Of a stretch of DNA of 64,000 nucleotides, positions 2 through 22,392 are shown in pieces. Origin of the DNA: an uncultured Gellertiella sp. GTDB lineage: Bacteria; Pseudomonadota; Alphaproteobacteria; Rhizobiales; Rhizobiaceae. Location: assembly GCF_963457605.1 (NCBI RefSeq), contig NZ_OY735139.1, positions 3,502,001 through 3,566,000 of the forward strand, written 5' to 3'. The position numbers were made by a program, and so were the translations under genes. The first letter of the stretch is position 1. The number at the start of each line of letters is the position of its first letter. Under the pieces are notes generated by a model. It saw nothing but the letters and a program-made list of their open reading frames with translations. It had not been told where the DNA came from and ran no database searches.

Positions 2-205
2 CAGTGGCGACCGCATGTGCGCGCCTTTTTCGGTGAGGTCGGAGTGGAAATCCTGATGGACATGGTTGTCGAAGGCTCGGTCACGTTTGATGATCTTGCA
101 AAGGCCATCTCCTTCTGGGATGTCGACGAGGACTATGAAAATGCGCGATGGATACGGGAAATGGCTGCCATCCCGGTGGCAAAAGCTGATGGAGCTGACG
201 CTTAG
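2..205 (+). CDS. 3' end of a hypothetical protein (partial)
   Basis: The frame is open from base 2, so this is the C-terminal part (about 67 residues) of a gene that begins before the window. A GTG at 17 could in principle start a 62-residue protein, but the frame continues upstream of it and no clear ribosome binding site precedes it. The visible segment is acidic with many aromatic residues (QWRPHVRAFFGEVGVEI... to ...AKADGADA), and I recognise no domain. The stop codon TAG (203-205) is made of the TA target dinucleotide plus the first G of the adjoining MITE, so the insertion may have changed or truncated the original C-terminus. Confidence 0.45.
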   Translation, partial: QWRPHVRAFFGEVGVEILMDMVVEGSVTFDDLAKAISFWDVDEDYENARWIREMAAIPVAKADGADA

Positions 206-303
206 AGTCTGTCAGGTTCATATTGAACCAGACAGACTCTAGGGCCCTTTGTTTTCGTTTGTCCTTTCGGGAAAACCGGATTCCACTTTTCCCTGACAAA
301 CTC
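205..303. repeat. MITE copy A (IS630-derived, about 99 bp)
   Basis: The element is flanked by TA (203-204 and 304-305). Its ends are GAGTCTGTCAGG on the left and, read inward from the right, GAGTTTGTCAGG. The left 35 bases form a hairpin (GAGTCTGTC... pairing with ...GACAGACTC, 205-239), followed by a T-rich stretch. It has no coding capacity. Related copies lie at 11929-12046 and about 21541-21604. The outer 11 bases of the left end match the terminal inverted repeat of the IS630-family element inserted next to it, so the IS transposase could move it in trans (inference). Confidence 0.85.
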
Positions 304-305
304 TA

Positions 306-1354
306 GAGTCTGTCAGTGACAAATTGAATCTGGAGGGATTCCAATTTTGTGTTTTTTCTGATTCAAGCATCTTGCTGGAAGGGAGGCCAGCAAGGATGGT
401 GAAGCCTCTTTCTCTTGATTTGCGGGCCCGGGTGGCGGATGCGTTGACGGGTGGCATGACTGTTCGCGCGGCGGCGGAACGGTTTGGAATATCGGTCGCC
501 TCGGCGGTTCGGATCGGTCAGCTTTCGCGCTCGGGCAAAGGGCTGCTGCCATCGAAAATTGGCGGCCATGTCAAGCCCATTCTGAGCGGTGACCTGGCAG
601 AGAAGGTGCGCCAGCGGCTGGCCGCAAAGTCTGACTGGACGGTCAGAGCCCTTGCCGCCGATCTTCAGTCGTTTGGCATCCATGTATCACACGATACGGT
701 GTGGCGGTTCCTGCGCAGCCAGGGAAATACCTTTAAAAAAAACGCTGGTAGCCAGTGAGCAGGACAGGCCGAAAGTGGCAAGGTTCAGAGCGCGTTGGAA
801 GGCCCATCAGCACCGGATTGATCCGGAACGGCTTGTTTTCATTGATGAGACCTGGGTCAAGACCAACATGACGCGGACCTGCGGCTGGTGCCCGCGCGGT
901 CAGCCCCTGATCGCGAAGGTGCCGCATGGCCACTGGAAAACACTGACCTTTTTGGCCGGGCTGCGGCGCAACGGCATCGTTGCGCCTTTCGTGCTCGACG
1001 GCCCCATCAACAGTATCGCCTTTACAGCATGGGTTCAGCAATGTCTTGTCCCCGTGCTGAAAGCCGGTGACATTGTCGTCCTCGACAACCTGGGCAGCCA
1101 CAAATGCAAGGCCGCCAGCGAGGCGGTGCGGGCACAAGGGGCTCGCATGTTCTTTCTGCCGCCCTATTCACCAGACCTCAATCCAATCGAAATGATGTTC
1201 TCAAAGCTGAAAACGCTCGTCCGCAAAGCCGAGGAGCGAACCATTGAAACGACTTGGCGTCGCATCGGAGAACTCCTCAAAGAATTTACCCCTGAAGAAT
1301 GCTCGCGATACATCACGCATGCAGGATATGCTTCTATCTAAAACTGACAGACTC
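306..1354 (+). mobile_element. IS630-family insertion sequence, 1049 bp, complete
   Basis: Perfect 12-bp terminal inverted repeats GAGTCTGTCAGT (306-317) and ACTGACAGACTC (1343-1354) are flanked by TA (304-305 and 1355-1356), the target duplication typical of the IS630/Tc1-mariner superfamily. It carries one transposase gene spread over two reading frames. It lies at the right end of MITE copy A and uses the same TA, so both elements favour a CTAG site. The right flank begins GAGTTTG, which resembles another MITE end. The element separates degP from whatever lay upstream. Confidence 0.9.
396..1341 (+). CDS. IS630-family transposase, two frames (likely programmed frameshift)
   Basis: DDE transposase that cuts and joins the IS ends at TA targets. 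The first frame (396-758) starts MVKPLSLDLRARV and encodes the N-terminal helix-turn-helix region to VWRFLRSQGNTFKK. The second frame (open to 1341) encodes the catalytic domain with FIDETW, VLDNLGSHK and PDLNPIE, so all three DDE carboxylates are present. The frames meet at a run of eight A (735-742). Many IS630-family elements fuse two frames by ribosomal slippage on such a run; the alternative is an inactivating indel. The fused product would be about 315 residues, normal for the family. ATG 396 follows a GGGAGG-like site. Confidence 0.85.
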
Positions 1355-1493
1355 TAGAGTTTGCCCCGACCCCGCAACATTACCAATATTTCATGCGCCA
1401 GACAGTTACTGGTAAGGTCTCTGCCCCTATATCTCTGTCATCAACTTCACCGCCACCGGTAAACGGCGGAGACAAGAGAGAAGGCAGACGACC

Positions 1494-3050
1494 ATGGTCA
1501 CGCAGAAGACTGGACTTTTTTCCGTAAAATCCCTGCTGAAGGCTTCGGCCCTTTCGGCATTGACCGCCGGTGTCATCGTCACGGGCATCCCGCATGGCAT
1601 TCTTGCCGCCCGCGCGGATGCGGTCGCGGTGCAGGCACCCGCGGTGCCGAGCTTTGCCGATGTGGTCGGCGCGGTCACGCCCGCCGTGGTGTCCGTCCGG
1701 GTCCAGTCGAATGTCGAGCAGACCGCCGATGACGGCAACGGCTTCTCCTTCAATTTCGGCGGCGAGGATTTCGACCAGCTGCCCGACGATCACCCGCTGA
1801 AGCGGCTGTTCAAGCAGTTCGGCGGCCAGCTGCCCGGCAGTGGCCAGAACCAGACGCCGCACAAGCTTCCGCATGGCAAGGGTCACCTGCGTCCCGTTGC
1901 GCAAGGCTCCGGCTTCTTCATCTCCGGGGATGGCTATATCGTCACCAACAATCACGTGGTCAGCGATGGCCAGGCCTATACGGTGGTGCTCAATGATGGC
2001 ACCGAGCTGGATGCCAAGCTGGTCGGCAAGGACAGCCGCACCGATCTCGCCGTGCTGAAGGTCGATGCCAAGCGCAACTTCACCTATGTGAAATTTGCCG
2101 ATGACGCGAAGGTCCGGGTCGGCGACTGGGTGGTTGCTGTCGGCAATCCCTTCGGCCTTGGCGGCACCGTGACGGCGGGCATCATCTCGGCGCGCGGCCG
2201 CGATATCGGCTCCGGCCCCTATGACGACTATCTGCAGGTCGATGCCGCCGTCAACAAGGGCAATTCCGGTGGCCCGACCTTCAACCTGTCCGGCGAAGTG
2301 GTCGGCATCAACACCGCGATCTTCTCGCCCTCCGGCGGCAATGTCGGCATCGCCTTCGCCATTCCCTCCACCATCGCCCAGACCGTGGTGCAGGATCTGA
2401 TCAAGACCGGTTCGGTGTCGCGTGGCTGGCTCGGCGTGCAGATCCAGCCCGTCACCCAGGATATCGCCGATTCCCTCGGCCTTGCCGAAGCCTCCGGCGC
2501 GCTGGTGGTTGCCCCGCAGGAAGGTTCGCCCGGCCAGAAGGCCGGGATGATGAAGGGCGACGTGGTCACCGCCGTCAATGGCGAACCGGTGAAGGATGCC
2601 CGCGACCTCTCGCGCCGCATCGGCTCGACGGCGCCCGGCACCAAGGTGGAAGTGACGCTCTGGCGCAATGGCAAGTCCGAGGTGGTGCAACTGACGCTGG
2701 GCAACCTGCCTGCCGAACAGAAGCAGGCCTCCGCCGATGACCAGACCCAGCCCGACGACCAGACCCCCTCGACCGACAAGGCGCTTGCCGGACTCGGCCT
2801 GACGGTCTCCCCCGCCGATGGTGGCAAGGGCGTGACGGTCACGCAGGTCGATCCGGACTCCGATGCCGCCGACAAGGGCCTGAAGCAGGGCGAAACCATC
2901 ACCTCGGTCAACAACCACGAGGTCAGGACCGTCGCCGACATCGAAAAGGCCCTCGACAAGGCCCGCAACGACGGCCGCAAGAAGGCGCTGTTCCAGATCG
3001 AATCGACCGAAGGCACCCGCTTCATGGCACTGGATATCGCCAGGGGGTGA
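1494..3050 (+). CDS. degP: Do-like periplasmic serine endoprotease DegP/HtrA
   Basis: Degrades or refolds damaged envelope proteins in the periplasm. It has 518 residues, an N-terminal hydrophobic segment (about 15-32) with an AARADA cleavage-like site, a trypsin-like domain with His154 (TNNHVVSD), Asp184 (RTDLAVLKV) and Ser258 (GNSGGP), and two PDZ domains (about 300-400 and 425-515). The acidic and Gln-rich insert at about 75-130 corresponds to the LA loop. A response regulator and sensor kinase follow on the same strand after 222 bases; linkage of a DegP to such a pair is common in rhizobia and suggests an envelope-stress circuit (inference). The IS630 copy ends about 140 bases upstream and may affect its promoter. 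Confidence 0.95.
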   Translation: MVTQKTGLFSVKSLLKASALSALTAGVIVTGIPHGILAARADAVAVQAPAVPSFADVVGAVTPAVVSVRVQSNVEQTADDGNGFSFNFGGEDFDQLPDDHPLKRLFKQFGGQLPGSGQNQTPHKLPHGKGHLRPVAQGSGFFISGDGYIVTNNHVVSDGQAYTVVLNDGTELDAKLVGKDSRTDLAVLKVDAKRNFTYVKFADDAKVRVGDWVVAVGNPFGLGGTVTAGIISARGRDIGSGPYDDYLQVDAAVNKGNSGGPTFNLSGEVVGINTAIFSPSGGNVGIAFAIPSTIAQTVVQDLIKTGSVSRGWLGVQIQPVTQDIADSLGLAEASGALVVAPQEGSPGQKAGMMKGDVVTAVNGEPVKDARDLSRRIGSTAPGTKVEVTLWRNGKSEVVQLTLGNLPAEQKQASADDQTQPDDQTPSTDKALAGLGLTVSPADGGKGVTVTQVDPDSDAADKGLKQGETITSVNNHEVRTVADIEKALDKARNDGRKKALFQIESTEGTRFMALDIARG

Positions 3051-3156
3051 GGCTGACGGCTCCCCCGGGGGGAATTGCTCAAGGAGAGGGTGGGGCATCT
3101 TGTGTCACAAAAGATGTCCCACCTCGGGCCTGCCCTCACCCCGGCCCTGCCCCAAC

Positions 3157-3173
3157 GCAAACCGGAGGTTTGC
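3157..3173. repeat. Palindrome in the degP-regulator gap
   Basis: GCAAACC and GGTTTGC pair as 7-bp arms around GGA in a C-rich context (CCCTCACCCCGGCCCTGCCCC just before, GAGGGGCAG just after, which can extend the stem). This looks like a REP-type intergenic hairpin and may end degP transcription or stabilise its mRNA. No second copy was found in this window. Confidence 0.45.
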
Positions 3174-3272
3174 ACGAGGGGCAGCGGTGGGGGTAGGCCC
3201 GATGCGCCAAGGAATGTGTTGCGCACCTCACCACATCCCCCGGATTGCGCGATTATTGCATGAGGCGCTAAG

Positions 3273-3959
3273 ATGACCTCCATGAAGATACTGGTGATTG
3301 AAGACGATCTTGAAGCGGCGGCCTATCTGGTCAAGGCGTTCAGGGAGGCGGGAGTTGTGGCCGATCATGCCAGCGATGGTGAAAGCGGCCTGTTCATGGG
3401 GCTGGAGAACAGCTATGACGTCCTGGTGATCGACCGGATGCTGCCGCGTCGCGACGGGCTTTCGGTGATTGCCGAGCTGCGCCGCAAGGGCGTGCACACG
3501 CCGGTGCTGATTCTGTCTGCCCTTGGCCAGGTGGATGACCGGGTGACCGGGCTTCGCGCCGGGGGCGACGATTACCTGCCGAAACCCTATGCCTTCAGCG
3601 AGCTGCTCGCCCGGGTCGAGGTGCTTGGCCGCCGCAAGGGCACGCCCGAACAGGACATGGTCTACCGGGTCGGCGATCTCGAGCTGGACCGGCTTTCCCA
3701 CACCGCACGCCGGGCAGGCAGGGACCTGCTGCTGCAGCCGCGCGAATTCCGGCTGCTGGAATACCTGATGAAGAATGCGGGCCAGGTGGTGACCCGCACC
3801 ATGCTGCTCGAACATGTCTGGGATTACCATTTCGACCCGCAGACCAATGTCATCGACGTCCATATCTCGCGGCTGCGCGCCAAGATCGAGAAGCCCGATT
3901 GTGCGCCGCTGCTGAAGACCATTCGCGGGGCGGGTTACATGATCAAGGACGGGGAGTGA
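3273..3959 (+). CDS. OmpR-family response regulator
   Basis: Cytoplasmic transcription regulator of 228 residues. The receiver domain has the acidic pair in VIEDDLEAA, phosphoacceptor Asp54 (VIDRMLP) and Lys104 (YLPKPYAF). The C-terminal winged helix (about 130-226) shows the usual FRLLEYLMKNAGQVVTR and NVIDVHISRLRAKIE segments and the RGAGYM end. The kinase gene starts 6 bases after its stop, so the two form a pair. ATG 3282 is an alternative start (MKILVIEDD). Targets are unknown; downstream of degP, a role in envelope homeostasis is plausible. Confidence 0.92.
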   Translation: MTSMKILVIEDDLEAAAYLVKAFREAGVVADHASDGESGLFMGLENSYDVLVIDRMLPRRDGLSVIAELRRKGVHTPVLILSALGQVDDRVTGLRAGGDDYLPKPYAFSELLARVEVLGRRKGTPEQDMVYRVGDLELDRLSHTARRAGRDLLLQPREFRLLEYLMKNAGQVVTRTMLLEHVWDYHFDPQTNVIDVHISRLRAKIEKPDCAPLLKTIRGAGYMIKDGE

Positions 3960-3965
3960 CCGGGC

Positions 3966-5363
3966 ATGTCCCGCTTTCGCCTGCTGTTCATGTCCACGGC
4001 GGTCCGCCTTTCCGCCATTTACATCATCCTGTTTGCGCTGGCCGCAGGCACGCTGGTCTTCTATGTCACCGCGATGTCGGAACGGCTGCTGGTGTCGGAA
4101 ATCCGCGAGACCCTGAACCAGGAAGTCACCGATGTCCAGGCAGCCTATGAGCGCGGCGGCGTGGCAAGGCTGGCGCGCACCATGGAGGTGCGGGCCCGCC
4201 AGCCCGGCGCCAATCTCTACCTGATTGCCGGGCCGACGGGCGAAGTGCTGGCCGGCAATGTCGCCTCGGTTCCGCCCGGCATATTCGACCAGCAGGGCTG
4301 GACGGAGCAGCCCTTTGCCTACCAGCGCTATCAGGAGACGCTACGCCATCCGCGCATGGCGATTGCCAATGTGTTCTTCCTCGACAACGGCATGCGCATC
4401 CTGATCGGCCGCGACCTTGCCGAACCGGGGGCGCTGAGGATGCTGGTGCGCCGCGCCGTCTTCGTCACGGTCGGTGCGCTCGGGGTCGGGGCGATCCTGC
4501 TCTGGCTGCTGATCGGCCGCAACGCCCTGCGCCGCATCGACCGGATTTCCGATGCCAGCAAGAAGATCATGGCCGGAGACCTGACCCAGCGCCTGCCGTT
4601 TGGCGGGTCCGGCGACGAATTCGACCGGCTGTCGGTGTCGCTGAACAGCATGCTGGAAAGGATCGCCAGACTCGACGAGGGGCTGCGGCAGGTCTCCGAC
4701 AATATTGCCCATGACCTGAAGACACCGCTGACGCGGCTGCGCAACCGCGCCGCCGAAACGCTGGAGACCGGCGATGGCGACCAGCGCCGCGCCGGCCTTG
4801 AAGGCATCATCGCCGAATCCGACCAGCTCATCCGCACCTTCGACGCGCTGCTGATGATTTCAAGGGTCGAGGCCGGCTCGCAGGCCGCGATGCTGTCGGA
4901 TCTCGATCTCTCCGCCATCGCCGCCGATTGCGTCGAGCTTTACGAACCCGTCGCCGAAGAGGCGGGCTTCCGGCTGGAAGGCACGATTGCCCCCGGTATC
5001 GGCATTTCCGGCAACCGGGAACTGATCGGCCAGACGCTCGCCAATCTCATCGACAATGCCATCAAATATGCCGATGGCAACGCGTCCGAGCGGCTGATCC
5101 GCGTCAGCCTCGCACGCGCGGGGGAGGGTGTTGCGCTCGCCATATCCGACCATGGCCGCGGCATCCCCGAAGACCGCCGCGCCGATGTGGTCAAACGCTT
5201 CGTCCGACTCGACGAAAGCCGCTCCAAACCCGGCACCGGCCTCGGACTTGCACTCGCCGGTGCCGTCATGGACCTGCACGGCGGCAGGCTCACACTGTCG
5301 GATACCGACCCGGAAAAGACCGCTCACCCCGGGCTGACGGTGACATTGCGCTTCCGGGGATGA
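3966..5363 (+). CDS. Sensor histidine kinase, partner of the preceding regulator
   Basis: Inner-membrane kinase of 465 residues. Two membrane segments (about 13-36 and 166-187) enclose a periplasmic sensor region of about 130 residues, followed by a HAMP linker (RNALRRIDRISDASKKIMAGD), the HisKA box with its phosphorylated His (NIAHDLKTPLTRL), and an ATPase domain with N (NLIDNAIKYA), G1 (DHGRGIP) and G2 (GTGLGLALAGAV) boxes. This is EnvZ/CpxA-like architecture. It is probably co-transcribed with the regulator. The signal sensed cannot be read from the sequence. Confidence 0.92.
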   Translation: MSRFRLLFMSTAVRLSAIYIILFALAAGTLVFYVTAMSERLLVSEIRETLNQEVTDVQAAYERGGVARLARTMEVRARQPGANLYLIAGPTGEVLAGNVASVPPGIFDQQGWTEQPFAYQRYQETLRHPRMAIANVFFLDNGMRILIGRDLAEPGALRMLVRRAVFVTVGALGVGAILLWLLIGRNALRRIDRISDASKKIMAGDLTQRLPFGGSGDEFDRLSVSLNSMLERIARLDEGLRQVSDNIAHDLKTPLTRLRNRAAETLETGDGDQRRAGLEGIIAESDQLIRTFDALLMISRVEAGSQAAMLSDLDLSAIAADCVELYEPVAEEAGFRLEGTIAPGIGISGNRELIGQTLANLIDNAIKYADGNASERLIRVSLARAGEGVALAISDHGRGIPEDRRADVVKRFVRLDESRSKPGTGLGLALAGAVMDLHGGRLTLSDTDPEKTAHPGLTVTLRFRG

Positions 5364-5432
5364 GGGGATTTACAGCGGTTGCTTGCGTCCTGTCTCACGT
5401 CAGGCTTATTTTAGTTAGTTAATGCTAATGTA

Positions 5433-5470
5433 AAGTTGTCGGTTGACAACTTCGTATAGTTGCCTATGAT
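5433..5470 (+). promoter_or_regulatory. Promoter and overlapping operator of the toxin-antitoxin-like pair
   Basis: TTGACA (5443-5448), 16 bases, TATGAT (5465-5470) is a good sigma-70-type promoter. The inverted repeat AAGTTGTC (5433-5440), four bases, GACAACTT (5445-5452) is perfect and covers the -35 box. GGAGG (about 5472) and ATG 5486 follow at once, so the leader is very short. A protein bound at the repeat would block the promoter, the classic arrangement for autoregulated toxin-antitoxin operons (inference). Confidence 0.7.
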
Positions 5471-5485
5471 GGAGGAAAGATCACG

Positions 5486-5734
5486 ATGCGGCGACGGCAT
5501 CAGAACCCCGAGATCGAGGATGCCTTGCGTCACACGGAAGCAAAGGGCTGGCGAATTGATGTTGGCGGCAGTCACGCATGGGGCAAGATGAAGTGTCCCG
5601 TCAGGCACGATGATTGTCGATGTGGCGAGTTTTGCCTGACCAGTATCTGGAGCAAGCCGAAGAACCCCGGCAACCATGCACGCGCCCTCAGGCGTGTCGT
5701 GGATAAATGTGTTTATGACAAGGACGAAAGCTGA
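5486..5734 (+). CDS. HicA-like small protein, putative toxin
   Basis: 82 residues, basic. The segment KGWRIDVGGSHAWGKM (about 20-35) matches the core of HicA mRNA interferases, whose catalytic His sits in a GSH motif; here it would be His30. Unlike classical HicA it carries a cysteine cluster (Cys37, Cys44, Cys46, Cys50) that could bind a metal. I know this family as a widespread uncharacterised conserved protein; the toxin function is inferred from the motif, the small size and the overlapping regulator gene. Start ATG 5486 is set by GGAGG 10-14 bases upstream. The stop TGA overlaps the next ATG by one base, implying translational coupling. Confidence 0.75.
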   Translation: MRRRHQNPEIEDALRHTEAKGWRIDVGGSHAWGKMKCPVRHDDCRCGEFCLTSIWSKPKNPGNHARALRRVVDKCVYDKDES

Positions 5735-6291: not shown

Positions 6292-6396
6292 GCCGGCGGG
6301 CGCATTCACCGTTTCCCTTGACGCCACCGCCTGCTACATCTCGCCCCGTGCGGAACCACAAGCAGCGTCCGCAGCCAATGGGGGAGCATAGCAAGC

Positions 6397-9342: not shown

Positions 9343-9425
9343 TACCAAGGATCATTGACAGGAACCCGCAGGGCCGGTCGCTTTCGGCCTCCGGACGGTG
9401 TCGAAAATCCTCGCCGGACCCAAGA

Positions 9426-11747: not shown

Positions 11748-11928
11748 CTCTTCAAACCTTGATCCCTTTGGTGATTCGCGAAACCGCCGCTGCGAATCTA
11801 CCCTAATGAATCAAAGGTGATTCGCCTTGTCCAGCAGAAAAGTAACGGATCGTTAACCATAGGATCGAACAGGCGAATTTCGCCGGCGGCGGACTGGTTT
11901 GCGGGAGGGCGGGGCAGGGCAGGTTCTA

Positions 11929-12046
11929 GAGTTTGTCAGGGAAAAAGTGGAATCCGGTTTTCCCGCTCAAACTTGTTTGAGCGAAAAGACAAACGACAAC
12001 AAGGGGAGCCAGAGTCTGGCTGGTTCAATATGAACCTGACAGACTC
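11929..12046. repeat. MITE copy B (118 bp) behind pepN
   Basis: TA at 11927-11928 and 12047-12048 flank an element with ends GAGTTTGTCAGG and, from the right, GAGTCTGTCAGG. It is a longer relative of copy A: the same hairpin stands at the pepN side, and the middle carries an extra small palindrome (CTCAAAC/GTTTGAG, about 11966-11982). The pepN stop codon TAG is the right-hand TA plus the first G of the element (12046-12048 on the minus strand). The hairpin therefore forms the first bases of the pepN 3' untranslated region. Confidence 0.85.
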
Positions 12047-14694
12047 TAGCCCGCGAGCATGCGTTCGACGATATCCTTGACATCTGCCGAGAGACCGCTT
12101 GCCCGCTGGATCACTTCCAGCGCCAGGCGGGCATGTCCGGCGCGGCCGGCTTCCAGCGTCTGCCAGGAGCGCAGCGCCGTCAGCAGGCGTGCGGCCAGTT
12201 GCGGATTCCTCGGGTCGATGTCGAGAATCTGGCGAGCCAGGAACCGGTAGCCTTCGCCATCCGCCCGGTTGAAGCCGGTGGGGTTGGAGAAGCAGAACGT
12301 GCCGGCCAGCGCCCGGATGCGGTTGGGATTGCGGCTGTTGAACAGCGGATGGGCCGCAAGCTCGGTCACCCGCTGCAGCGTGGAGGCCCCGGGGATCGAT
12401 GCCTGCACCGCAAACCACTTGTCGATCACCAGCGCATTGTCGCGGAAGCGTTCCTCGAATGTGGCGAGCGCGTGCAGTGTTTCCGGCGCATCGGGGAAAT
12501 GATGGGCAAGCACGCTCAGCGCGTGGCTGAGGTCGGTCATGTTGTCGGCAGAGGCAAAGGCGCGCGCTGCCCGCGCAGGCGTGCCCTCGGCCAGCGCCAG
12601 ATAGGTAAGCGCCGTATTGGCAAGCGCCCGCCGCCCGGCACTGGCCGCATCGGGCGCAAAGGGGCCGGTGCTGGCCATGGCGGCATGGATCGCTTCAAAC
12701 TCGGCCTGACCGGCGCTGGCGACGGCCGACAGCACCGCACGGCGCGCCTGATGGATGGCATCCGGGTCGTTGTTGGACTTCAGCTCGCGGGCAATGTCGG
12801 TTTCGCCGGGCAGCGCCAGGGCCTGGGCGCGGAAGGCCGGCTCGAGGCTGCCATCGCGCGCCGTGCCGATCAGGATGTCCACCACATCGGGGCTTGCCGC
12901 CGCCGTGCCACCGTTGCGCAACTGCTCGACACTTGCGGTCATGTCTTTCAGCGCCAGATCGGTGATCGCCTGCCAGCGGGCAAACAGGTCCCTTTCATGG
13001 GTGGCGATCAGCGCCAGATCCCGCTCTGCCTGCACGAACCTGATATTGACCGGTGCTGAAAAGCTGCGGTTCAGGGACAGGATCGGCCGCTGCGCAATGC
13101 CGGTGAAGGTGACGGTCTGCCGGGCCTGGGTGAGATGCAGGACATCGCCGCGCATTTCGGCACCCGAGACGGATACGGCTGATATTTCCGCACCCGCCGC
13201 GTCGAGCAGGCCAAGCCGCACCGGAATATGCATGGGCTTCTTGTCCGGCTGGCCGGGGGTGGGCGGAACCAGCTGCTCCATCGTCAACGTATAGGTGGCG
13301 GTTGCGGCGTCATGGGTGTCAGAGACGGTGAGAAGCGGCGTACCGGCCTGATGGTACCAGAGGGAGAATTGCGAGAGGCCGGTGCCGCTGGCGTCCTCGA
13401 AGCATTTGACGAAATCCTCCACCGTCGCGGCATCGCCGTCATGCCGGTCGAAATAGAGGTCCATGCCCTGCTTGAACAGATCCGGCCCGAGAATGGTGGC
13501 GATCATGCGCGTCACCTCGCTGCCCTTCTCGTAGACAGTGGACGTGTAGAAATTGTTGATCTCGCGATAGGCGGTCGGGCGCACGGGATGGGCGAGCGGG
13601 CCCGCATCCTCGGCAAACTGTTCCGATTTCAGGTGCCGCGCCTCGGCGATGCGCTTGACGGCGCGCGAGCGCTGGTCGGCGGAGAATTCGTGGTCGCGAT
13701 AGACCGTCAGGCCTTCCTTCAGGCAGAGCTGGAACCAGTCGCGGCAGGTGATGCGGTTGCCGGTCCAGTTGTGGAAATATTCATGCGCGATGATCGCCTC
13801 GATATTGGCATAGTCGGCATCCGTCGCCGTCTCGGGATCGGCCAGCACATATTTGTCGTTGAAGATGTTGAGGCCCTTGTTTTCCATCGCCCCCATGTTG
13901 AAGTCGGAAACCGCGACGATCATGAAGATGTCGAGATCATATTCGCGGCCGAACACCTCCTCGTCCCAGCGCATCGAGCGCTTCAGCGCATCCATCGCAT
14001 AGGCGGCGCGCGGCTCCTTGCCGTGCTCGACATAGATCTTCAGCGCCACCTCGCGTCCGGACCGGGTGACGAAACTGTCCTCGACCACGCCGAGATCGCC
14101 CGCGACCAGCGCGAAGAGATAGCTGGGCTTGGGATGCGGATCGAACCAGGCGGCAAAATGCAGGTCGCCGCCATAGCCGGCACCACCGAGGAAATTGCCG
14201 TTCGACAGCAGCAGCGGATTTTCCGCCTTGCTGGCGATGATGTTGACGGTATAGGGGGCAAGCACGTCGGGCCGGTCGGGGAAATAGGTGATGCGGCGGA
14301 ACCCTTCCGCCTCGCACTGGGTGCAATAGATGCCGCCGGTGCGGTAAAGCCCCATCAGCTGGGTATTGGCCTCGGGATTGATGATCGTGGTGACGGTGAT
14401 CTCGAACGGCGCCTGTTCCGGCAGGTTGCGGATCGTCAGGCCCTGGGGCGACACGGTAAACTGCTCGGCGGGCAGTTCGTTCTGGTCCAGCAACAGGCCC
14501 GCGAGCGCCAGGTCATCCCCGTCAAGCATCAGCGGCGCACGCGCATCGACGCCATCGCGCCGGTGAAAGATCAGTCGGGATTCCACCTTGGTGGCAGTCG
14601 GATCAAGCTCAAAAGTGAGATCCACCCGTTCAAGTACGAAGCTGGTAGGGCGGTAATCTGCCAGGTGGATAGCCTGGCCCGTTTCTTTGCGCAT
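12046..14694 (-). CDS. pepN: Aminopeptidase N (M1 family zinc metallopeptidase)
   Basis: Cytosolic aminopeptidase that trims N-terminal residues from peptides. It has 882 residues from ATG 14694 (MRKETGQAIHLADYRP), close to the 870 of E. coli PepN. The frame stays open upstream to 14793, but that extension is not family-like. Substrate loop MGAMENKGLN, zinc site HEYFHNWTGNR and the downstream KEGLTVYRD with the third zinc ligand are all present, followed by the Ig-like and helical C-terminal domains. The stop TAG falls exactly on the MITE copy B boundary. The gene is divergent from the DMT exporter gene. Confidence 0.95.
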   Translation of the reverse strand: MRKETGQAIHLADYRPTSFVLERVDLTFELDPTATKVESRLIFHRRDGVDARAPLMLDGDDLALAGLLLDQNELPAEQFTVSPQGLTIRNLPEQAPFEITVTTIINPEANTQLMGLYRTGGIYCTQCEAEGFRRITYFPDRPDVLAPYTVNIIASKAENPLLLSNGNFLGGAGYGGDLHFAAWFDPHPKPSYLFALVAGDLGVVEDSFVTRSGREVALKIYVEHGKEPRAAYAMDALKRSMRWDEEVFGREYDLDIFMIVAVSDFNMGAMENKGLNIFNDKYVLADPETATDADYANIEAIIAHEYFHNWTGNRITCRDWFQLCLKEGLTVYRDHEFSADQRSRAVKRIAEARHLKSEQFAEDAGPLAHPVRPTAYREINNFYTSTVYEKGSEVTRMIATILGPDLFKQGMDLYFDRHDGDAATVEDFVKCFEDASGTGLSQFSLWYHQAGTPLLTVSDTHDAATATYTLTMEQLVPPTPGQPDKKPMHIPVRLGLLDAAGAEISAVSVSGAEMRGDVLHLTQARQTVTFTGIAQRPILSLNRSFSAPVNIRFVQAERDLALIATHERDLFARWQAITDLALKDMTASVEQLRNGGTAAASPDVVDILIGTARDGSLEPAFRAQALALPGETDIARELKSNNDPDAIHQARRAVLSAVASAGQAEFEAIHAAMASTGPFAPDAASAGRRALANTALTYLALAEGTPARAARAFASADNMTDLSHALSVLAHHFPDAPETLHALATFEERFRDNALVIDKWFAVQASIPGASTLQRVTELAAHPLFNSRNPNRIRALAGTFCFSNPTGFNRADGEGYRFLARQILDIDPRNPQLAARLLTALRSWQTLEAGRAGHARLALEVIQRASGLSADVKDIVERMLAG

Positions 14695-15000
14695 GATGGT
14701 TCCCGGTTCGGATCTATACGTTGCACCTGTCATTCTGGCACGACCTCGGTAAACCCCTCGGGAAATGATATAAGCCAGTTTTGCGTCTGACACTCTGGCA
14801 TCAATTTCTGAATGATTATTAAAATTGATGATAATTTATCAGAAGCGATCAAAATCGCTGGTTGAGCCTTCATCAGCACTATTGCAATGCCAGTCAGAAG
14901 TATTCATGCCTGAAGGTGTCATTCCCGGTTACAACACTTGCCGTCGAAGGCCAGTCTGTCATGCGCTCCGGTGCGATGGCAACCTTTTTGAAAGCCGACC
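14695..15000. other. Divergent pepN / DMT exporter intergenic region
   Basis: 306 bases without a gene. An AT-rich core at 14801-14870 holds an interrupted inverted repeat TTCTGA (14806-14811) with TCAGAA (14839-14844), containing inner arms ATTAT/ATAAT, and next to it a short hairpin GCGAT/ATCGC (14845-14858). These probably mark the promoters and operators of the divergent genes. I could not place convincing -35/-10 pairs. Confidence 0.4.
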
Positions 15001-15909: not shown

Positions 15910-15914
15910 AAGGC

Positions 15915-17135
15915 TCAGCCCTGCTGGCTGACGCCTTCGGTGCCCTGCATCGGGATCGGCATGGCATGAAAATCGGTCGCCGAATCCCTGCCGTCGGTGA
16001 TGCGCCGCTTCATGCGCCAGCCCGCATAGAAGGCATAGAGGGTGAAGGCCGTGGCGAGGAACCACAAAAGGCCGTTCGGTCCGACATATTCCATCAGCGT
16101 TCCCCCCATCAGCGGGCCGGAAACGGTGCCGAGACCGTAGAGGATCATGATGCCGCTCGAGATCATGACATATTCCTCCGGTTCTGCGCGGTCATTGGCA
16201 TGCGCCACATTCAGCGCATAGACCGGATAGAGCACGGTGCCGACCAGGAAGGCCGCGCCATAGAGGGCGTAGATGTTGCCGTGGCCGATGGCGCTCATCA
16301 GCACGCTGGAGACAAGCCCGATCACGCCGCAGCCGATCATCACATAGCGCCGGTCGATGCGGTCGGACAGACGGCCGATCGGCATTTGCGAGAAGGCACC
16401 GCCCGCAAGTGCCGCCGCCAGCAGCGTCGCGCCCTCGGCGGTGGTAAGGCCGGCCTTCTGCGTGTAGACACCGCCAAGACTGCCCCAGGTGCCCGACAGC
16501 GCGCCTGACAGCAGCGACCCCCAGAAGGCAATCGGCGAGCGCCGGTAGAGCTTTGGCAGGTTGAAGCTGGCCTTGGCGATGGGGGCAGGGGTCTCCGCCG
16601 TCGACAGGGCGGTCGGCAGCAGCGCCAGCGAAAAGATCACGCCGCAGAGCATGAACAGGGTGGTGGAATTGATGTCGCCGAGCGGCACCAGATATTGCCC
16701 GCCAATCGATCCCACCAGGCAGGTGATCATGTAGATCGAAAACAGCGTGCCGCGATTGTCATTGGTGACCCGCTCGTTCAGCCAGCTCTCGATGATCAGA
16801 TAGGCCCCGGCAATGGCAAAGCCTGACAGCATGCGGAAGAAGAACCAGGCCTTCCAGTTCACCAGCAGCGCACAGAGCAGGATGCTGACGGTCAACATCG
16901 TGATCAGTGCCCCGAACACCCGGACATGGCCGACCCGGCGGACGAAATACGGGGTGACGATGCAGGACAGGGTGAAGCCGAACGTGTAGCCGGTGGCGAT
17001 CACCGAGATCACGATGGTCGACCAGCCCTCATGCACGGACCGCACCGGCAGCATGTAGTTCATCAAGCCGAAGCCAACCATCATCATCAGTGTCGATGCC
17101 ATGAGACTGGCGATGGAGAGCAGGCTGCGAATCAT
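15915..17135 (-). CDS. MFS transporter, YcaD-like
   Basis: 406 residues with about 12 predicted membrane segments, the two six-helix halves being split near residue 200 (TAETPAPIAKASFNLPKLYRR). The motif GRLSDRIDRRYVM between helices 8 and 9 is the major-facilitator signature, and RNTGTLFSIYM-like sequence (RGTLFSIYMITCLVGSIGGQYLV) is typical of the YcaD/YfkF group of putative exporters. Substrate is unknown. Start ATG 17135 (MIRSLLSIASLMAS). The gene is divergent from the unknown gene at 17389, with 253 bases between them. Confidence 0.85.
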   Translation of the reverse strand: MIRSLLSIASLMASTLMMMVGFGLMNYMLPVRSVHEGWSTIVISVIATGYTFGFTLSCIVTPYFVRRVGHVRVFGALITMLTVSILLCALLVNWKAWFFFRMLSGFAIAGAYLIIESWLNERVTNDNRGTLFSIYMITCLVGSIGGQYLVPLGDINSTTLFMLCGVIFSLALLPTALSTAETPAPIAKASFNLPKLYRRSPIAFWGSLLSGALSGTWGSLGGVYTQKAGLTTAEGATLLAAALAGGAFSQMPIGRLSDRIDRRYVMIGCGVIGLVSSVLMSAIGHGNIYALYGAAFLVGTVLYPVYALNVAHANDRAEPEEYVMISSGIMILYGLGTVSGPLMGGTLMEYVGPNGLLWFLATAFTLYAFYAGWRMKRRITDGRDSATDFHAMPIPMQGTEGVSQQG

Positions 17136-17388
17136 CGAAAATGTCCTTGAAAGAGGGCCCTGCTTCGGGATGTCCGAATGCGTCGGGCAGGGGCATCATT
17201 GCGAAAGCGGAAGGCCGGGCGCGGTGTCGTTTGCGACAGGGTCTTGCTTAATGCCGTTTTAAAAAACCGTCCCGGTGTTTTTGCATTAACCGAAAATTAG
17301 CAATCTTCTTGATTTTAAAGTCATATACGGGCAGGTTCATGCCTGTGGAGGGGATGAATGCCCGTCTGGAGTAAGGGGAACGCCGGCG

Positions 17389-18363
17389 ATGCAGCCGCTG
17401 TGGCCCCCAAGCCCGAGTGATGACATGCATGATTTTGCACTGCCGATCGACATTCTCTCTCATGGCAACTCGAACGATTCCGACGCGTTTTCGCCGCTCA
17501 CCGTCGAGCGGATCCTGGCCAGTCCCCGCTTCCAGCAGGCGCTTTGCGACCTGTCGGGCAACCTGCTGGCCACATTTCAGGCCAATCCGCGCCTCTGCCG
17601 GGCGCTGGGCTCCCACCAGCGCTGGCTCCTGTCCCAGGCCGCCTTCGCATTGCATTTCGAATATCATGTGGCGAACAAGGCGTCGGGCCTGACGGTCGGT
17701 CGGCTGCGTGACCTGATCACGCCGACGGGGGCGGCCAGCCGCAATACGGTGCTGAATTTCATCGAGGAAATGCGCCATTACCGCTATGTGCGCGATATCC
17801 CGCATCCGGATGGCGGGCGCAGCCGCCGCAGGCGTGTCGAAATCAGCGAACAGGCGGAAGAGACCATGGCCACCTGGTTCCGCTTCAACATCGCGCTTCT
17901 CGACCAGATCGACGGCGGCGAGCGGCAGGCGGCGCTGGTGCGCGATCCCGGCATTTTCCGCCGCGCCCAGCCGGTCGCGGCGCGTCGCTGTCTGGAAGAC
18001 AAGGCCTGGCTGGACCCGCCTGTGGCCGTCGGCCTGTTTCAGTGGACGGAAAGCGGCGGGCTGGTGATGGACGAACTGATGGCGCGCTGTGGCCGCACCA
18101 CGGCCAATGCCGAGGGACGCTACAATCTCGGCACGGTCAATATCCGCGCCATGGCGGATGCCTATCTGATGTCGCACACCCATTTGCAGCGGCTGTTCCG
18201 CAAGGCGGCGGAGATGCAGGTGATCGGCTGGGAGGGCAACCGGCGCAAGGCCGAACTCTGGGTGTCCGCCGACTTCCTCGATGATTACCGGCGCTGGCAG
18301 GCGGCAAAACTCGTGCATCTCGACCATGCCTTTCATGCTGCTGTCGATGTTGCTGCCCCCTAG
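17389..18363 (+). CDS. Uncharacterised protein with winged-helix-like segments
   Basis: 324 residues, soluble and Arg-rich. Two stretches look like winged helix-turn-helix DNA-binding units: GLTVGRLRDLITPTGAASRNTVLNFIEEMRH with a basic wing PDGGRSRRRRVEIS (about 104-160), and NIRAMADAYLMSHTHLQRLFRKAAEMQVIGWEG (about 255-287). A transcription regulator is therefore plausible, but I cannot name the family. Start ATG 17389 follows an AAGGGGA stretch; ATG 17425 is an alternative. It is divergent from the MFS transporter gene and may regulate it (inference from position). Confidence 0.6.
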   Translation: MQPLWPPSPSDDMHDFALPIDILSHGNSNDSDAFSPLTVERILASPRFQQALCDLSGNLLATFQANPRLCRALGSHQRWLLSQAAFALHFEYHVANKASGLTVGRLRDLITPTGAASRNTVLNFIEEMRHYRYVRDIPHPDGGRSRRRRVEISEQAEETMATWFRFNIALLDQIDGGERQAALVRDPGIFRRAQPVAARRCLEDKAWLDPPVAVGLFQWTESGGLVMDELMARCGRTTANAEGRYNLGTVNIRAMADAYLMSHTHLQRLFRKAAEMQVIGWEGNRRKAELWVSADFLDDYRRWQAAKLVHLDHAFHAAVDVAAP

Positions 18364-18975
18364 ACCGAAAGCGCCTGAGGCCACCACGGGCGCGCGCGCC
18401 GCTGACACATTCGGTACCCTGGACTTCACCGGCATTCGAAAGGCCCATCCATCGGGCGGGGCGGCCTGCCGGTCATCCGGCCGAAGCCCTGCGCCGTGAT
18501 CTGCTCATTGGTGACGAAATGGGCGGGGCGGCCATGGACCGCCAGCCGCTGGATAAGGACTGCGGCCTGAAGGCTTTCGAACACGGAATGTACCTGATGT
18601 CGGCGAATGAACATGGCGGTCGGTCCCTGGCTTGTCACACGGTTTGCAAATAAAGCTCAACCGGCAGATCCAGAACCCGCCGGTGTCGATGACCTCCGCC
18701 AAACGCATGTCGCGCGAAAGTGCGCAGCGGTTTCGCGATGACGACATGCGTCAAATCAAGGACCTGCAGCGCGCGAGCGAGTCTCGAAGATCGCGACGTG
18801 CTGTAGGCTGACAATAAGACAGGACCGTGAAAAGCCCCCTCGCTCAAGCGCGTGTCTGCCATGCGCCCCGCGCATGCAGGCGTCATCTTGCCGCCATGGT
18901 TTTGAAAACCTGCTGCGGGCAAATCAGCCGGACGAGGGAGCCAGGTCTTCGATCAGAGCGAACTCAGATCTTCGA
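18364..18975. other. Intergenic region with repeats, no supported gene
   Basis: 612 bases. Short open frames exist on both strands (for example 18426-18638 minus), but none has a recognisable family or ribosome binding site. The region contains the inverted repeat listed at 18704-18787, a small palindrome ATGCGC/GCGCAT near 18860, and at its right end the start of a 23-bp tandem repeat. It looks like a worn insertion or recombination zone. Confidence 0.5.
18704..18787. repeat. Rhizobial-type intergenic repeat
   Basis: CGCATGTCG (18704-18712) pairs with CGACATGCG (18742-18750), and inside them CGCGAAA pairs with TTTCGCG. The sequence continues TCAAATCAAGGACCTGCAGC. I recall closely similar blocks (GTGCGCAGCGGTTTTGCG followed by ACGACATGC) many times between genes in Rhizobium and Agrobacterium, so this is probably a copy of a dispersed rhizobial repeat. 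That identification is from memory. Confidence 0.6.
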
Positions 18976-19007
18976 TCAGAGCGAACTCAGATCTTCGATC
19001 AGAGCGA
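18946..19007. repeat. 23-bp tandem repeat at the 3' end of the glycosylase gene
   Basis: The unit TCTTCGATCAGAGCGAACTCAGA occurs at 18946-18968 and 18969-18991, and its first 16 bases recur at 18992-19007. The unit includes the stop codon of the minus-strand glycosylase gene (18976-18978), so the duplication has altered the last codons and 3' region of that gene. Confidence 0.9.
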
Positions 19008-19857
19008 TGTCTTTGAGCTTCATGCGGAAGCGCAGGAGATCCTGCCAGGCAAGCCGCTTGTTTTGTGCGGCCAGCAGCAGATCGTGGGGGTGAAGGCTGG
19101 TGAGGGCGGGCACCACCAGTCCGCCGACGCCGAGATCGTGCCATTCGCCGCGCACCTTATGCATGGCCGCTTCCGGCCCGAGCAGGAAACGGGAGGTGAA
19201 ATTGCCGAGGATGAGCACGGCCTTCGGGGCGCAAAGCTCGATCTGGCGCTCGAGAAACGGACGGCAAATGTCCATTTCGGCCTGATAGGGCATCCGGTTT
19301 CCCGGCGGCCGCCAGGGCAGGGCGGTGGTCAGCACCACCCTGTCGCGGGAAAGCCCGATGGAGGCCAGCATCCGGTCGAACAGCACACCGGATGCCCCGG
19401 CAAAGGGTATTCCGTCCCGGTCCTCGTCCGCATCGGGAACCGAGCCGATCACCATGATGCCGGACTGGACGGCACCGGTGGCAAACAGCGCGTGCCGGGC
19501 GCTGCGCTTCAGATTGCAGAATTCAAAGCCCGAAATCGCCTCACGCAGCGCCTCGAGCGTCTGGGCCGTCGCGGCCACCCGGCGGGCTTCCGCCACCGCC
19601 TCGCCATCCGGCACGGCAATCGGCGCGGTGGACTGGGCGCGGGGAGGGGCCGCCTGCGGCCCCGCCCCGGTGCTGCGGGCCGGAACCTGCGCCGGCGCCT
19701 GTGCGGCGGCACGCTGGCTTCGCGCCTGCCGTTCGGCGGCATATTCGGCGAACCGGTCGACCGGCTGATCGTCCAGCATCCAGTCGACCCCCGCATCCGC
19801 ATAGAAATGCAGAAGCGCGGCGAGTTCGCGGGGCTGGAGGCTGTCTGACGGGATCAT
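18976..19857 (-). CDS. Family 4-type uracil-DNA glycosylase
   Basis: Removes uracil from DNA in base excision repair. 293 residues. The N-terminal 100 residues include an Ala/Pro-rich low-complexity linker; the core has MVIGSVPDADEDRDGIPFAGASG (about 150-170), WRPPGNRMP and CRPFLERQIELCAPKAVLILG. Family 4 enzymes hold a 4Fe-4S cluster with four Cys; here only CNLK and CRPF are in place and the site before RPPGNR is Trp. As I recall, that Trp is common in alphaproteobacterial members. The C-terminus (KDIALIEDLSSL) lies inside the 23-bp tandem repeat. Confidence 0.8.
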   Translation of the reverse strand: MIPSDSLQPRELAALLHFYADAGVDWMLDDQPVDRFAEYAAERQARSQRAAAQAPAQVPARSTGAGPQAAPPRAQSTAPIAVPDGEAVAEARRVAATAQTLEALREAISGFEFCNLKRSARHALFATGAVQSGIMVIGSVPDADEDRDGIPFAGASGVLFDRMLASIGLSRDRVVLTTALPWRPPGNRMPYQAEMDICRPFLERQIELCAPKAVLILGNFTSRFLLGPEAAMHKVRGEWHDLGVGGLVVPALTSLHPHDLLLAAQNKRLAWQDLLRFRMKLKDIALIEDLSSL

Positions 19858-19908
19858 GGCCTCACCTTATCCGAGCCGGGCGGCGCGGGGCAAGCACCGA
19901 CGGGAGTT

Positions 19909-21195
19909 TCAGGCGGTCCATTCGGAAATATCGTCGCGCGCGCCGATCAGCGCCAGGCCATGGGCAATCGACAGCAATTCGCCGCCGCTTTCGATGCGCG
20001 AGGTCGCGAAGCGGTTCTCGAAGATCCGCCGCACGGCAGGCACGAAGGAGGTGCCGCCCGTCAAAAACACCTTGTCGATGGCATCGGCAGGCGTTGCGGT
20101 TTTCACCAGCACCTCGTCGAGCGCCGATTCCATGCGCGCGAGATCGGGGGCGATCCAGCTTTCGAAATCGCGGCGGCGCACCAGCTTGCGACCGGCGGCC
20201 CCGAGCGGGGCGAAATGAAACTCCGCCTCCTCCGCAAGCGACAGCGCCATCTTCAGCGATGACACCGACTGGTAGAGCGGAAAGCCCTCGTCATGATCGA
20301 CCAGATCGACAAAGGCTTCGAGCTTTTCCGGCTCGTCGGCGACCCGCACCAGCTTCTTGAGTTCGGTGAATTCCTTCGAGGTCTTGAAGATCGACAGCTG
20401 GTTCCAGCGGCCGAAATTGGCGAAATAGCCCGACGGCACCTCGAGCTTCTTGTCGAAGCTGCGGAAGGTGCTGCCCTTGCCGATCTCCGGGGAGACGATC
20501 TGGTCGATGATGCGGAAATCGAAATGGTCGCCCGCCACCCCGACGCCGGAATGGCCGACCGGCTCGGCGGTGAGCCGCCCGGCGCGATGCTCGAAGCGGA
20601 TCAGCGAATAGTCGGTGGTGCCGCCACCGAAATCGGCGACCAGCACGGTCGCATCCTCCCTGAGCTTCCGGGCGAAATAGAAGGCGGCGGCGACGGGCTC
20701 GTAGACATAGTGGATATCGGCAAAGCCGGAGCGGCGCAGTGCATCGCCATAGCGCGTCAGCGCCAGTTCCTCATCCGGATTGGCCCCGGCAAAGGCGACC
20801 GGACGCCCCACCACCAGACGGCCCGGCTGTTCCGGCCAGTGCTCGCCCGCGTAGGTCTTCAGCCGCTCGACAAAGGCAGACATCAGGTCTTCGAAACTGT
20901 TGCGCCGGGCAAAGATCAGCGTTGCCTGGAACAGCGGGCTCGCCGCAAAGGTCTTGATCGATTGCAGGAAGCGGCAATCGCCGGGATTGTCGATGAACTG
21001 GCGGATGGCGGCCTGTCCGGCCTCGACACGCAGGCTGGTGTCGCGGTTCTTCAGAAAGGACAGCGCCGTGCGCATCGATTCCGCCTCGCCCGCCGCACTC
21101 GAAAACCGCATCGACCGGGTCTCGCCCGCCACCGCCTCGGCAATCACCGAATTGGTCGTGCCAAAATCAAAGCCCAAAGCACGCGCCATGGCCAT
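19909..21195 (-). CDS. Hsp70-family protein, YegD-like
   Basis: Actin-fold ATPase of 428 residues. It contains the phosphate-1 motif GFDFGTTNS (about 8-16), VYEPVAAAFYFAR, the phosphate-2 motif VADFGGGTTDYSLI and the adenosine motif VFLTGGTSFVPAVRRIF. It ends after the nucleotide-binding domain and has no canonical DnaK substrate-binding domain, as in E. coli YegD, whose role is unclear. ATG 21189 (MARALGFDF) is the better match to homologues; 21195 adds two residues. It lies 50 bases from the glycosylase gene on the same strand and may share a transcript. Confidence 0.88.
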   Translation of the reverse strand: MAMARALGFDFGTTNSVIAEAVAGETRSMRFSSAAGEAESMRTALSFLKNRDTSLRVEAGQAAIRQFIDNPGDCRFLQSIKTFAASPLFQATLIFARRNSFEDLMSAFVERLKTYAGEHWPEQPGRLVVGRPVAFAGANPDEELALTRYGDALRRSGFADIHYVYEPVAAAFYFARKLREDATVLVADFGGGTTDYSLIRFEHRAGRLTAEPVGHSGVGVAGDHFDFRIIDQIVSPEIGKGSTFRSFDKKLEVPSGYFANFGRWNQLSIFKTSKEFTELKKLVRVADEPEKLEAFVDLVDHDEGFPLYQSVSSLKMALSLAEEAEFHFAPLGAAGRKLVRRRDFESWIAPDLARMESALDEVLVKTATPADAIDKVFLTGGTSFVPAVRRIFENRFATSRIESGGELLSIAHGLALIGARDDISEWTA

Positions 21196-21370
21196 CTCCC
21201 CTTAGGTCTCAACGGATGGATATCGGGCACGCTGCCGCAAAATCACCGGCGCAGCCCCGAAAAGAGGGCGCCTGATGGCATGGCAGAGGGGGAAAGGCAA
21301 GCGCCGCCTGGCTGCAGGGCAATCACCTGGTTACTAAAGCAGGTGCGAGCAGGGGAATCGGGTGAACGCA

Positions 21371-21538
21371 TTATCCGGTGATGATGCGGACGAGGAAGTC
21401 GTCGTCCCAGGCTGCGGAGTGTCGGGCGAGATTGACGGACAGCTTGCCCTTTCCGCGCCGGATGAGGTTCAGGGCCATGTGCTTGATGGTTGTGAAGTTG
21501 GCGGGGGCGTGATCGGTTCGCACGCGGCATTCGTCGTC
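21371..21538 (-). pseudogene. C-terminal remnant of an ISAs1-family transposase
   Basis: About 55 codons (DDECRVRTDHAPANF through AAWDDDFLVRIITG) match the C-terminus of ISAs1/H-repeat transposases, including the NAPANF-KHMA-N-R block and the final WDDDFL. Everything N-terminal is missing: the coding sequence stops abruptly at about 21539 where MITE copy C begins. It is a dead fragment left by a deletion or by MITE-mediated rearrangement. Confidence 0.8.
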
Positions 21539-21540
21539 GC

Positions 21541-21604
21541 GAAAGGACAAACGAAAACAAAGGGCCCTAGAGTCTGTCTGGTTCAATATGAACCTGACAG
21601 ACTC
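21541..21604. repeat. MITE copy C, one end missing
   Basis: Read on the minus strand, this copy starts at the TAG stop of the SDR gene, has the GAGTCTGTCAGG end and hairpin nearly identical to copy A, and continues with GGGCCCTTTGTTTTCGTTTG. It then runs straight into the ISAs1 remnant instead of the second inverted repeat. TA at 21605-21606 marks the intact end. The outer half has been lost. Confidence 0.85.
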
Positions 21605-22392
21605 TAGAGGCTGCGGGCCGCGCCGCCGTCGCAGCGGATCATCGAGCCGGTGATGTAGCTTGCCCGTTCGCTGACGAGAAAGGCGGCTGTGGCACCGAAT
21701 TCCTCGATCGTGCCATAGCGCCTTGCCGGGATCTTCGCCTCGCTTGCGGCGCGGACCTCGTCGAGCGGCTTGCCTGCCCGCTCGGCCGCCGCCCGGTCGA
21801 GTTCGTCGATCCGCGAGGTCAGAATGCTGCCCGGCAGCAGCATGTTGACGGTGATGCCGAGGCCTGCCACCTCGGTTGCCAGCGTCTTCGACCAGCCGGC
21901 CAGCGCCGGGCGGAGCGTGTTCGACAGCGCAAGTCCGGCAATCGGTTCGATGATGCCCGACGAGGCGACCGTCAGGATGCGGCCAAACCCCTGCGCCCTC
22001 ATGCCGGGCAGGAAGGCATGGCCGAGCCCGATCAGCCGCAGCACCATCGCATTGAAGTAATGGCTGAGCGTTTCCGCCGACATGTCCGCGCAAGAGCCGG
22101 GCGGCGGACCGCCGGAATTGTTGACGAGGATATCGAGCCCGCCGAGCTTTTCCGCCACCGAAGCGGTGAGGTTCTCGACAATGAATGCATCGAAGAGATC
22201 GGCCACCACCCAGTCCGCCTTGCCCGGCCCGCGTGCCGTAAGCTCTTCGGCGCGCGCCTCGAGTGTCGCGGCATTGCGCCCGGTCAGGAGCACATGCGCG
22301 CCTTCGGCCACCAGCGCATCGGCAATGCCGCCGCCAAGCCCGCGCGAGGAGGCAAGTACCAGCGCCCGTTTTCCCGTCAGTCCCAGATCCAT
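21604..22392 (-). CDS. SDR-family NAD(P)-dependent oxidoreductase
   Basis: 262 residues, Rossmann fold. The cofactor loop reads ASSRGLGGGIA (about 14-24), followed by NNSGGPP in place of NNAG, a Ser in VASSGIIEP, and the C-terminal GSMIRCDGGAARSL. The usual catalytic YxxxK Tyr is not evident: the expected stretch reads LSNTLRPALAGWSKTLATE, with Lys present but no Tyr four residues before it. This holds for a known subgroup of SDRs similar to BacC/3-oxoacyl reductases. Substrate unknown. It directly follows the GlcD-type gene with a 2-base gap, so the two probably form an operon. The stop TAG coincides with the MITE copy C boundary. Confidence 0.85.
   Translation of the reverse strand: MDLGLTGKRALVLASSRGLGGGIADALVAEGAHVLLTGRNAATLEARAEELTARGPGKADWVVADLFDAFIVENLTASVAEKLGGLDILVNNSGGPPPGSCADMSAETLSHYFNAMVLRLIGLGHAFLPGMRAQGFGRILTVASSGIIEPIAGLALSNTLRPALAGWSKTLATEVAGLGITVNMLLPGSILTSRIDELDRAAAERAGKPLDEVRAASEAKIPARRYGTIEEFGATAAFLVSERASYITGSMIRCDGGAARSL

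Follow-up and report, generated by a model that had tools for sequence, protein, structure and literature searches.

In the genome analysed here, short elements without a transposase gene are repeatedly fused to stop codons, and we put at about 80% the probability that IS630/Tc1-mariner-type MITEs with a YTAR target (C/T-TA-G/A), together with the loss of harmful copies, explain this fusion without any sensing of stops. The elements were followed from a 64,000-nucleotide stretch, the window, to the rest of the host genome and to relatives. An earlier note on the window had proposed that the element may be a stop-codon-specific mobile 3′ UTR cassette; on such a reading it would seek stops and its hairpin would protect or end the transcript.

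Results

Three elements in the window lie at in-frame stops

The exact 12-base end of the element occurs three times in the window, in copies A, B and C (Table 1). With up to two mismatches there are 14 window matches, compared with a shuffle mean of 3.86, and none of 100 shuffles reached 14. Copy A reads directly as TA(203-204)-GAGTCTGTCAGG...GACAAACTC-TA(304-305), and the whole frame that its TAG closes is 109 aa long with a weak coding score (21). The statement that each copy sits at an in-frame TAG was confirmed by direct reading of all three junctions, and the stop fusion of A, B and C is real. By the island rule the window holds four islands, these three, which are the stop-fused ones, and the far end of the insertion sequence (IS) adjoining A. 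Because 53 of 152 islands are fused genome-wide, finding three of three has a probability of ~4% (0.35 cubed). All three copies meet the stop with the same end, for which the probability is ~25% given 30 fusions by the hairpin (H) end and 26 by the opposite (R) end in the host; the uniform orientation in the window does not exceed what chance would give.

Two more copies in the genome are 100% identical to A (C2:2258135-2258237 and C2:911438-911540). Just past the IS beside copy A, window positions 1357-1363 read GAGTTTG, which resembles an R end cut short. Rfam returned no family match in the window, and a 41-base stretch had no exact counterpart in viral contigs.

Table 1. Coordinates of the elements, the adjoining IS and the fused genes in the window
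Feature	Position	Strand	Remarks
Copy A, full element with both target TAs	203..305	+	H end 203-241, R end 287-305; 103 bp
TAG stop formed by target TA and first base G of copy A	203..205	+	Direct reading; gene-caller score weak (21)
IS630-family IS, TA on both sides, terminal repeats GAGTCTGTCAGT	304..1356	+	IS proper 306-1354
IS ORFs, overlapping	324-758 (HTH_32), 589-1341 (DDE_3)	+	Pfam
Copy B, full 118-base element with two TAs	11927..12048	-	One internal CGCTCAAACAAGTTTGAGCG module
pepN (M1 aminopeptidase)	12046..14793	-	TAG stop 12046-12048 made with copy B
Copy C, truncated	about 21540..21606	-	H end whole, body cut past ~64 bases
SDR gene	21604..22392	-	TAG stop 21604-21606 made with copy C

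Element architecture and resident IS630 copies

The host genome (4.17 Mb) contains 159 matches per strand to the H arm and 199 to the R end at up to three mismatches, while the H arm at up to two mismatches has no match in four same-genus genomes. Elements share a plan of TA, hairpin H (GAGTCTGTCAGGTTCA, loop, TGAACC..GACAGACTC), linker, optional CGCTCAAACGAGTTTGAGCG and AAACGCAAAACGTCGTTTGCGTG modules, GGGAAAACCGGATTCCACTTTTCCCTGACAAACTC and TA. In 75 full-length host islands they measure 99-174 bp between the TAs (99 in 42 of the 75), and they carry no transposase gene. TA is present at both ends in 59 of these 75 simple full-length islands (H side 62, R side 70), and islands without an intact TA mostly have CA or TG instead, as by mutation. 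The first base after the TA is G in 306 of 315 termini, with A in 5, C in 2 and T in 2. The first 11 bases of the IS at 306-1354 match the H end, GAGTCTGTCAG, exactly. Tandem or nested composites make up 22 of 152 islands. The internal CGCTCAAACGAGTTTGAGCG modules occur in 0 to 3 copies, and variants such as CGCGCAAACGAGTTTGCGCG preserve pairing (islands L134-L238). A strand bias among the copies in the matches listed was an effect of the listing and was discarded.

Single strands of the element fold far more stably than shuffled sequences do (z -5.1 to -5.8), and 18 of 23 consensus pairs show pair-keeping changes on both sides (21 copies from 18 genomes, a set found by covariance model and biased toward kept pairs). 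Judged by these sequence features, the element is an IS630/Tc1-mariner-type MITE with two covarying hairpins. Such strong, covarying hairpins speak for a 3′ UTR cassette, but the covariation could serve DNA ends in transposition and not RNA, and copy B showed no terminator-like site in a simple terminator scan.

The IS at 306-1354 is inserted flush at the far TA of copy A. It is one of five genomic copies with an identical 1049-bp core, three of which lie on an element TA (at an H end in one case, an R end in another and the inner TA of the hairpin in the third). YTAR flanks every one of the five (four CTAG, one TTAA). Being identical, the five copies are recent, and since the MITEs have diverged, most of the latter may owe their movement to another IS630. 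Five other IS630 copies make up a second group (~45% identical in the second ORF). Its ends, TAAAGCATGTC, resemble the ends of MITE subfamilies in other genomes, and we infer that each MITE subfamily may follow the ends of its own IS630. In this second group (L288-L292), the L288 and L289 copies close long open frames, their first base A giving TAA; the gene scores are weak.

Stop fusion across the host genome

Approximately 800 kb around the listed copies was fetched, covering 138 of 159 forward H arms and 158 of 199 R ends, and genes were called with a dicodon model. These stretches yielded 168 islands, of which 16 with unclassified ends were dropped. At least one end falls exactly on the TAG of a called gene in 53 of the remaining 152 (three at both ends); the other 99 are unfused. 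Such a proportion counts against a cassette that seeks stops, as does fusion through either end. The fused ends number 30 H and 26 R in all, and 20 H and 11 R in the 75 full-length islands (p=0.15). Together with 13 H and 21 R on two plasmids described below, these counts rule out a fixed orientation, so that the uniform orientation noted earlier holds for A, B and C but not genome-wide. TAG accounts for 128 of 685 stops where the stretches bear elements vs 29 of 310 in control stretches.

YTAR targets and occupancy near gene ends

IS630 itself reportedly prefers TA in CTAG, to go by the title of Tenzen and Ohtsubo 1991. In all 59 full-length islands that retain both TAs a pyrimidine (C or T) precedes the TA on the H side, and in 52 a purine (G or A) follows the TA on the R side. 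The empty site reconstructed from the far TA and its neighbours is YTAR in the same number (52/59), compared with a YTAR share of 8.3% among TA sites in the fetched DNA. Sites were then mapped by joining the flanks of islands with both TAs, a procedure that omitted 36 islands in which one end was unrecognised and 35 that had lost a TA, and used 81. The mapped sites comprise 28 CTAG, 34 CTAA/TTAG and 10 TTAA, a target wider than CTAG alone, and 9 of 81 that are not YTAR. Read from the H end, non-YTAR targets in the 59 islands are asymmetric (CTAT 6, CTAC 1, ATAG 0).

The same classes were applied to the insertions and to the YTAR sites of twenty control stretches of 20 kb each, which contain a few unmasked element ends. 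The 72 insertions at YTAR comprise 26 at stops, 43 intergenic and 3 genic; the 402 control sites comprise 33 at stops, 219 intergenic, 112 genic and 38 at stretch edges, the last being excluded from odds ratios (ORs). Stop and intergenic sites are both enriched over genic ones. Stops are also enriched 4-fold over intergenic YTAR as a whole (OR 4.0, p=1.4e-5), but not over intergenic YTAR within 60 nt downstream of a stop (26:18 vs 33:33, OR 1.44, p=0.44). Occupancy drops steadily with distance from the gene end, the ratio of insertions to control sites being 26/33 at stops, 18/33 within 60 nt, 11/41 at 61-150 nt and 10/90 beyond 150 nt, with 4/55 where there is no stop on either side and 3/112 in genes. 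It is lowest in divergent regions, and convergent regions are enriched over tandem ones (OR 6.8, p=8e-5). By extrapolation from 33 in 400 kb, the host has ~340 unoccupied C/T-TAR stops, and about 1 in 8 to 14 of such stops would be occupied (26 mapped, 53 in all).

The enrichment of convergent regions is in keeping with a stop-seeking cassette, yet the lack of excess over sites just downstream is not, and with only 53 of 152 islands fused and no fixed orientation the cassette reading did not hold up in the host; we regard it as improbable. The gradient is the mark of selection against genic and upstream insertions acting on a YTAR-seeking element, and stop-specific targeting is unnecessary in the host.

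The gene caller is simple, and 5 of the 53 fused genes score below 30, copy A's gene among the five, as might be expected if the fusions were due to chance or gene calling. The median score of the fused genes is nevertheless 117, independent PGAP annotation gives the same junctions, and chance would have to produce the 4-fold enrichment over intergenic YTAR; there is very little likelihood that the fusions are artefactual.

Insertions at pre-existing stops

The first base G of the element turns any in-frame TA into TAG, and 4 of the 9 mapped insertions outside YTAR were classed as genic, which would fit truncation of genes by a premature stop at any in-frame TA. An in-frame YTAR is already a stop (TA plus purine), so truncation is impossible there, and genic cases are 3 of the 72 YTAR insertions. 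Protein ends are likewise conserved. Eighty loci were fetched for pepN, and the 18 homologues checked all terminate no more than one residue away from the end of the window protein (at the position matching residue 915 in 16 and 914 in 2); three of three same-genus SDR orthologues end at residue 262, with TGA as their stop. pepN and the SDR gene therefore have normal length, as the note had it. Because the SDR relatives use TGA, a prior TGA-to-TAR change must be assumed for copy C, which lacks its far end.

A before-and-after comparison was available in Agrobacterium vitis, where an adenine deaminase-type gene is followed by the element in strain F2/5, right after ...GTGGTCTTCTAG, and in strain CG78 ...GTGGTCTTCTAG runs on into ordinary sequence. 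The two strains, 95.6% identical over the covered part, share ...GTGGTCTTC-TAG with an identical TTC-TAG stop, and the counterpart gene of Rhizobium ruizarguesonis also ends in TTCTAG. In a second comparison, at a double-stop site in a plasmid pair (XES5 vs Shinella WSC3-e, 87.6% identical), one convergent gene keeps its end but the C-terminus of the other differs. When same-genus genomes were searched once at the DNA level for an empty site, no counterpart aligned across the tested site. The prediction that strains without the insertion would have the same stop was thus borne out in A. vitis and for one of the two genes in the plasmid pair. Because the F2/5-CG78 stop is identical and the pepN and SDR ends are conserved, the comparisons support the earlier proposal that insertions enter pre-existing stops and leave genes untruncated, and truncation at any TA was rejected on the conserved ends and the YTAR logic as a most unlikely origin of the fusions.

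Relatives and plasmids

BLAST located the element in 28 plasmid records of Agrobacterium vitis, Shinella, Martelella, Rhizobium and others, and a covariance model found it in 69 of 151 family genomes, the host included (26 candidates scored per genome). Two plasmids (NZ_CP084753.1 and NZ_CP084754.1) named Roseateles sp. XES5, an unverified organism, are full of this repeat, which in this analysis was otherwise found in Rhizobiaceae, and they may be mislabelled as to organism. On them, 30 of 37 copies have a gene of the public PGAP records ending exactly at a junction, and 4 of the 30 have one at each junction, with gene ends transcribed by hand from those records. In the both-end cases convergent genes have their stops in one common CTAG, as also in Shinella HZN7. 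Where convergent genes have one common CTAG, both stops survive insertion of a single element (L310 1801-1903; L343 1208-1310 and 3801-3903). In 17 other genomes, 9 of 20 copies hand-picked from the best covariance-model matches were fused, and some subfamilies begin with A, giving TAA. The idea that most copies lie at stops, to be judged by counting TAG-abutting copies in the genome and its relatives, is accordingly true of the two plasmids but not of the host. A further repeat starting CTAGAGCATTTCCAGCCGAAGCGGG (L345 ~610003, L348 ~371674) lies once right at a TAG stop and is probably another family with the same stop-codon habit.

The high plasmid fraction is a point in favour of the cassette. 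Outside elements, 14 of 34 XES5 CTAG sites are at stops, 15 elsewhere in non-genic DNA and 5 in genes, so a CTAG-seeking element meets stops often there. Stops nevertheless exceed other non-genic CTAG sites (30:6 vs 14:15, OR 5.4, p=0.004), with controls that are the stretches around the elements, genes called with a host-trained model and at least one control stop belonging to another repeat family. This excess argues against a pure target explanation on these plasmids, although selection against other sites can give the same excess. No control CTAG lies within 60 nt of a stop, all other non-genic sites being more than 60 nt away, and the comparison of stops with nearby sites over all YTAR gave an OR of 2.2 (p=0.26). 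On the XES5 plasmids there may therefore be a true preference of the transposase for stop contexts.

Discussion

We favour a reading in which target choice and loss of harmful copies together bring the elements to stop codons; transposition itself and selection are what we infer. An IS630-family transposase would move the MITEs in trans and insert them at the TA of YTAR, with CTAG favoured. Every TAA or TAG stop that follows C or T is such a site, and YTAR is rare inside genes in GC-rich genomes. Entry into a stop would duplicate the TA, and the terminal base of whichever end comes next (G, or A in related subfamilies) would again give TAG or TAA, leaving the protein unaltered in either element orientation and keeping both stops of convergent genes that have one common CTAG. 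Purifying selection would remove genic and upstream insertions, so that survivors accumulate at stops and just downstream. Since the ends recreate YTAR at both junctions, tandem and nested copies would follow.

More tentatively, and with the odds somewhat against it, YTAR targeting and purine-first ends may have been kept together across an IS630-type superfamily in Rhizobiaceae as a safe harbour, because stops are rebuilt on both strands and in both orientations and two new YTAR sites are left.

Rhizobial intergenic mosaic elements (RIME) would presumably fit the window elements in size and host range. RIME, which are named in PMC2573895, are likewise short palindromic intergenic repeats present in many copies in Rhizobiaceae. 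RUP of Streptococcus pneumoniae, ~107 bp long with many copies, IS630-Spn1-like ends, a TA target and no internal gene, is like the window elements in size, copy number, resident-IS630-like ends and target; it often lies near or in IS elements, the available parts of its descriptions do not mention stop fusion, and the sequences are unrelated as far as compared (PMC3049150, PMC2229807). For stop fusion the closest precedent, and the sole clear one found in the literature available on stop-codon insertion, though others may have been published, is the S. pneumoniae BOX repeat, which supplies the stop codon in 36 genes with truncation not strongly evidenced (PMC3049150). BOX is modular (boxA/B/C), and the available part of that source makes no tie to YTAR or to ends that rebuild stops on both strands (PMC3049150). 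IS630 and ISY100 of the Tc1/mariner/IS630 family have TA duplication and CTAG preference in common with the window elements (PMC2170065) but are autonomous, whereas the latter lack a transposase. MITEPsy1 of Pseudomonas syringae, a 100-nt MITE inserting at CTAG or YTAA, differs in its 4-nt duplication and IS5-like ends (PMC3189936).

With a target motif that coincides with stop codons and ends that restore the stop, the elements would have a route to high copy number in a compact genome, insertion at the very end of a gene having no protein-level cost. The element shifts TAG stop usage, and the many mRNAs with a mobile hairpin right after the stop would amount to a natural experiment on 3′ ends.
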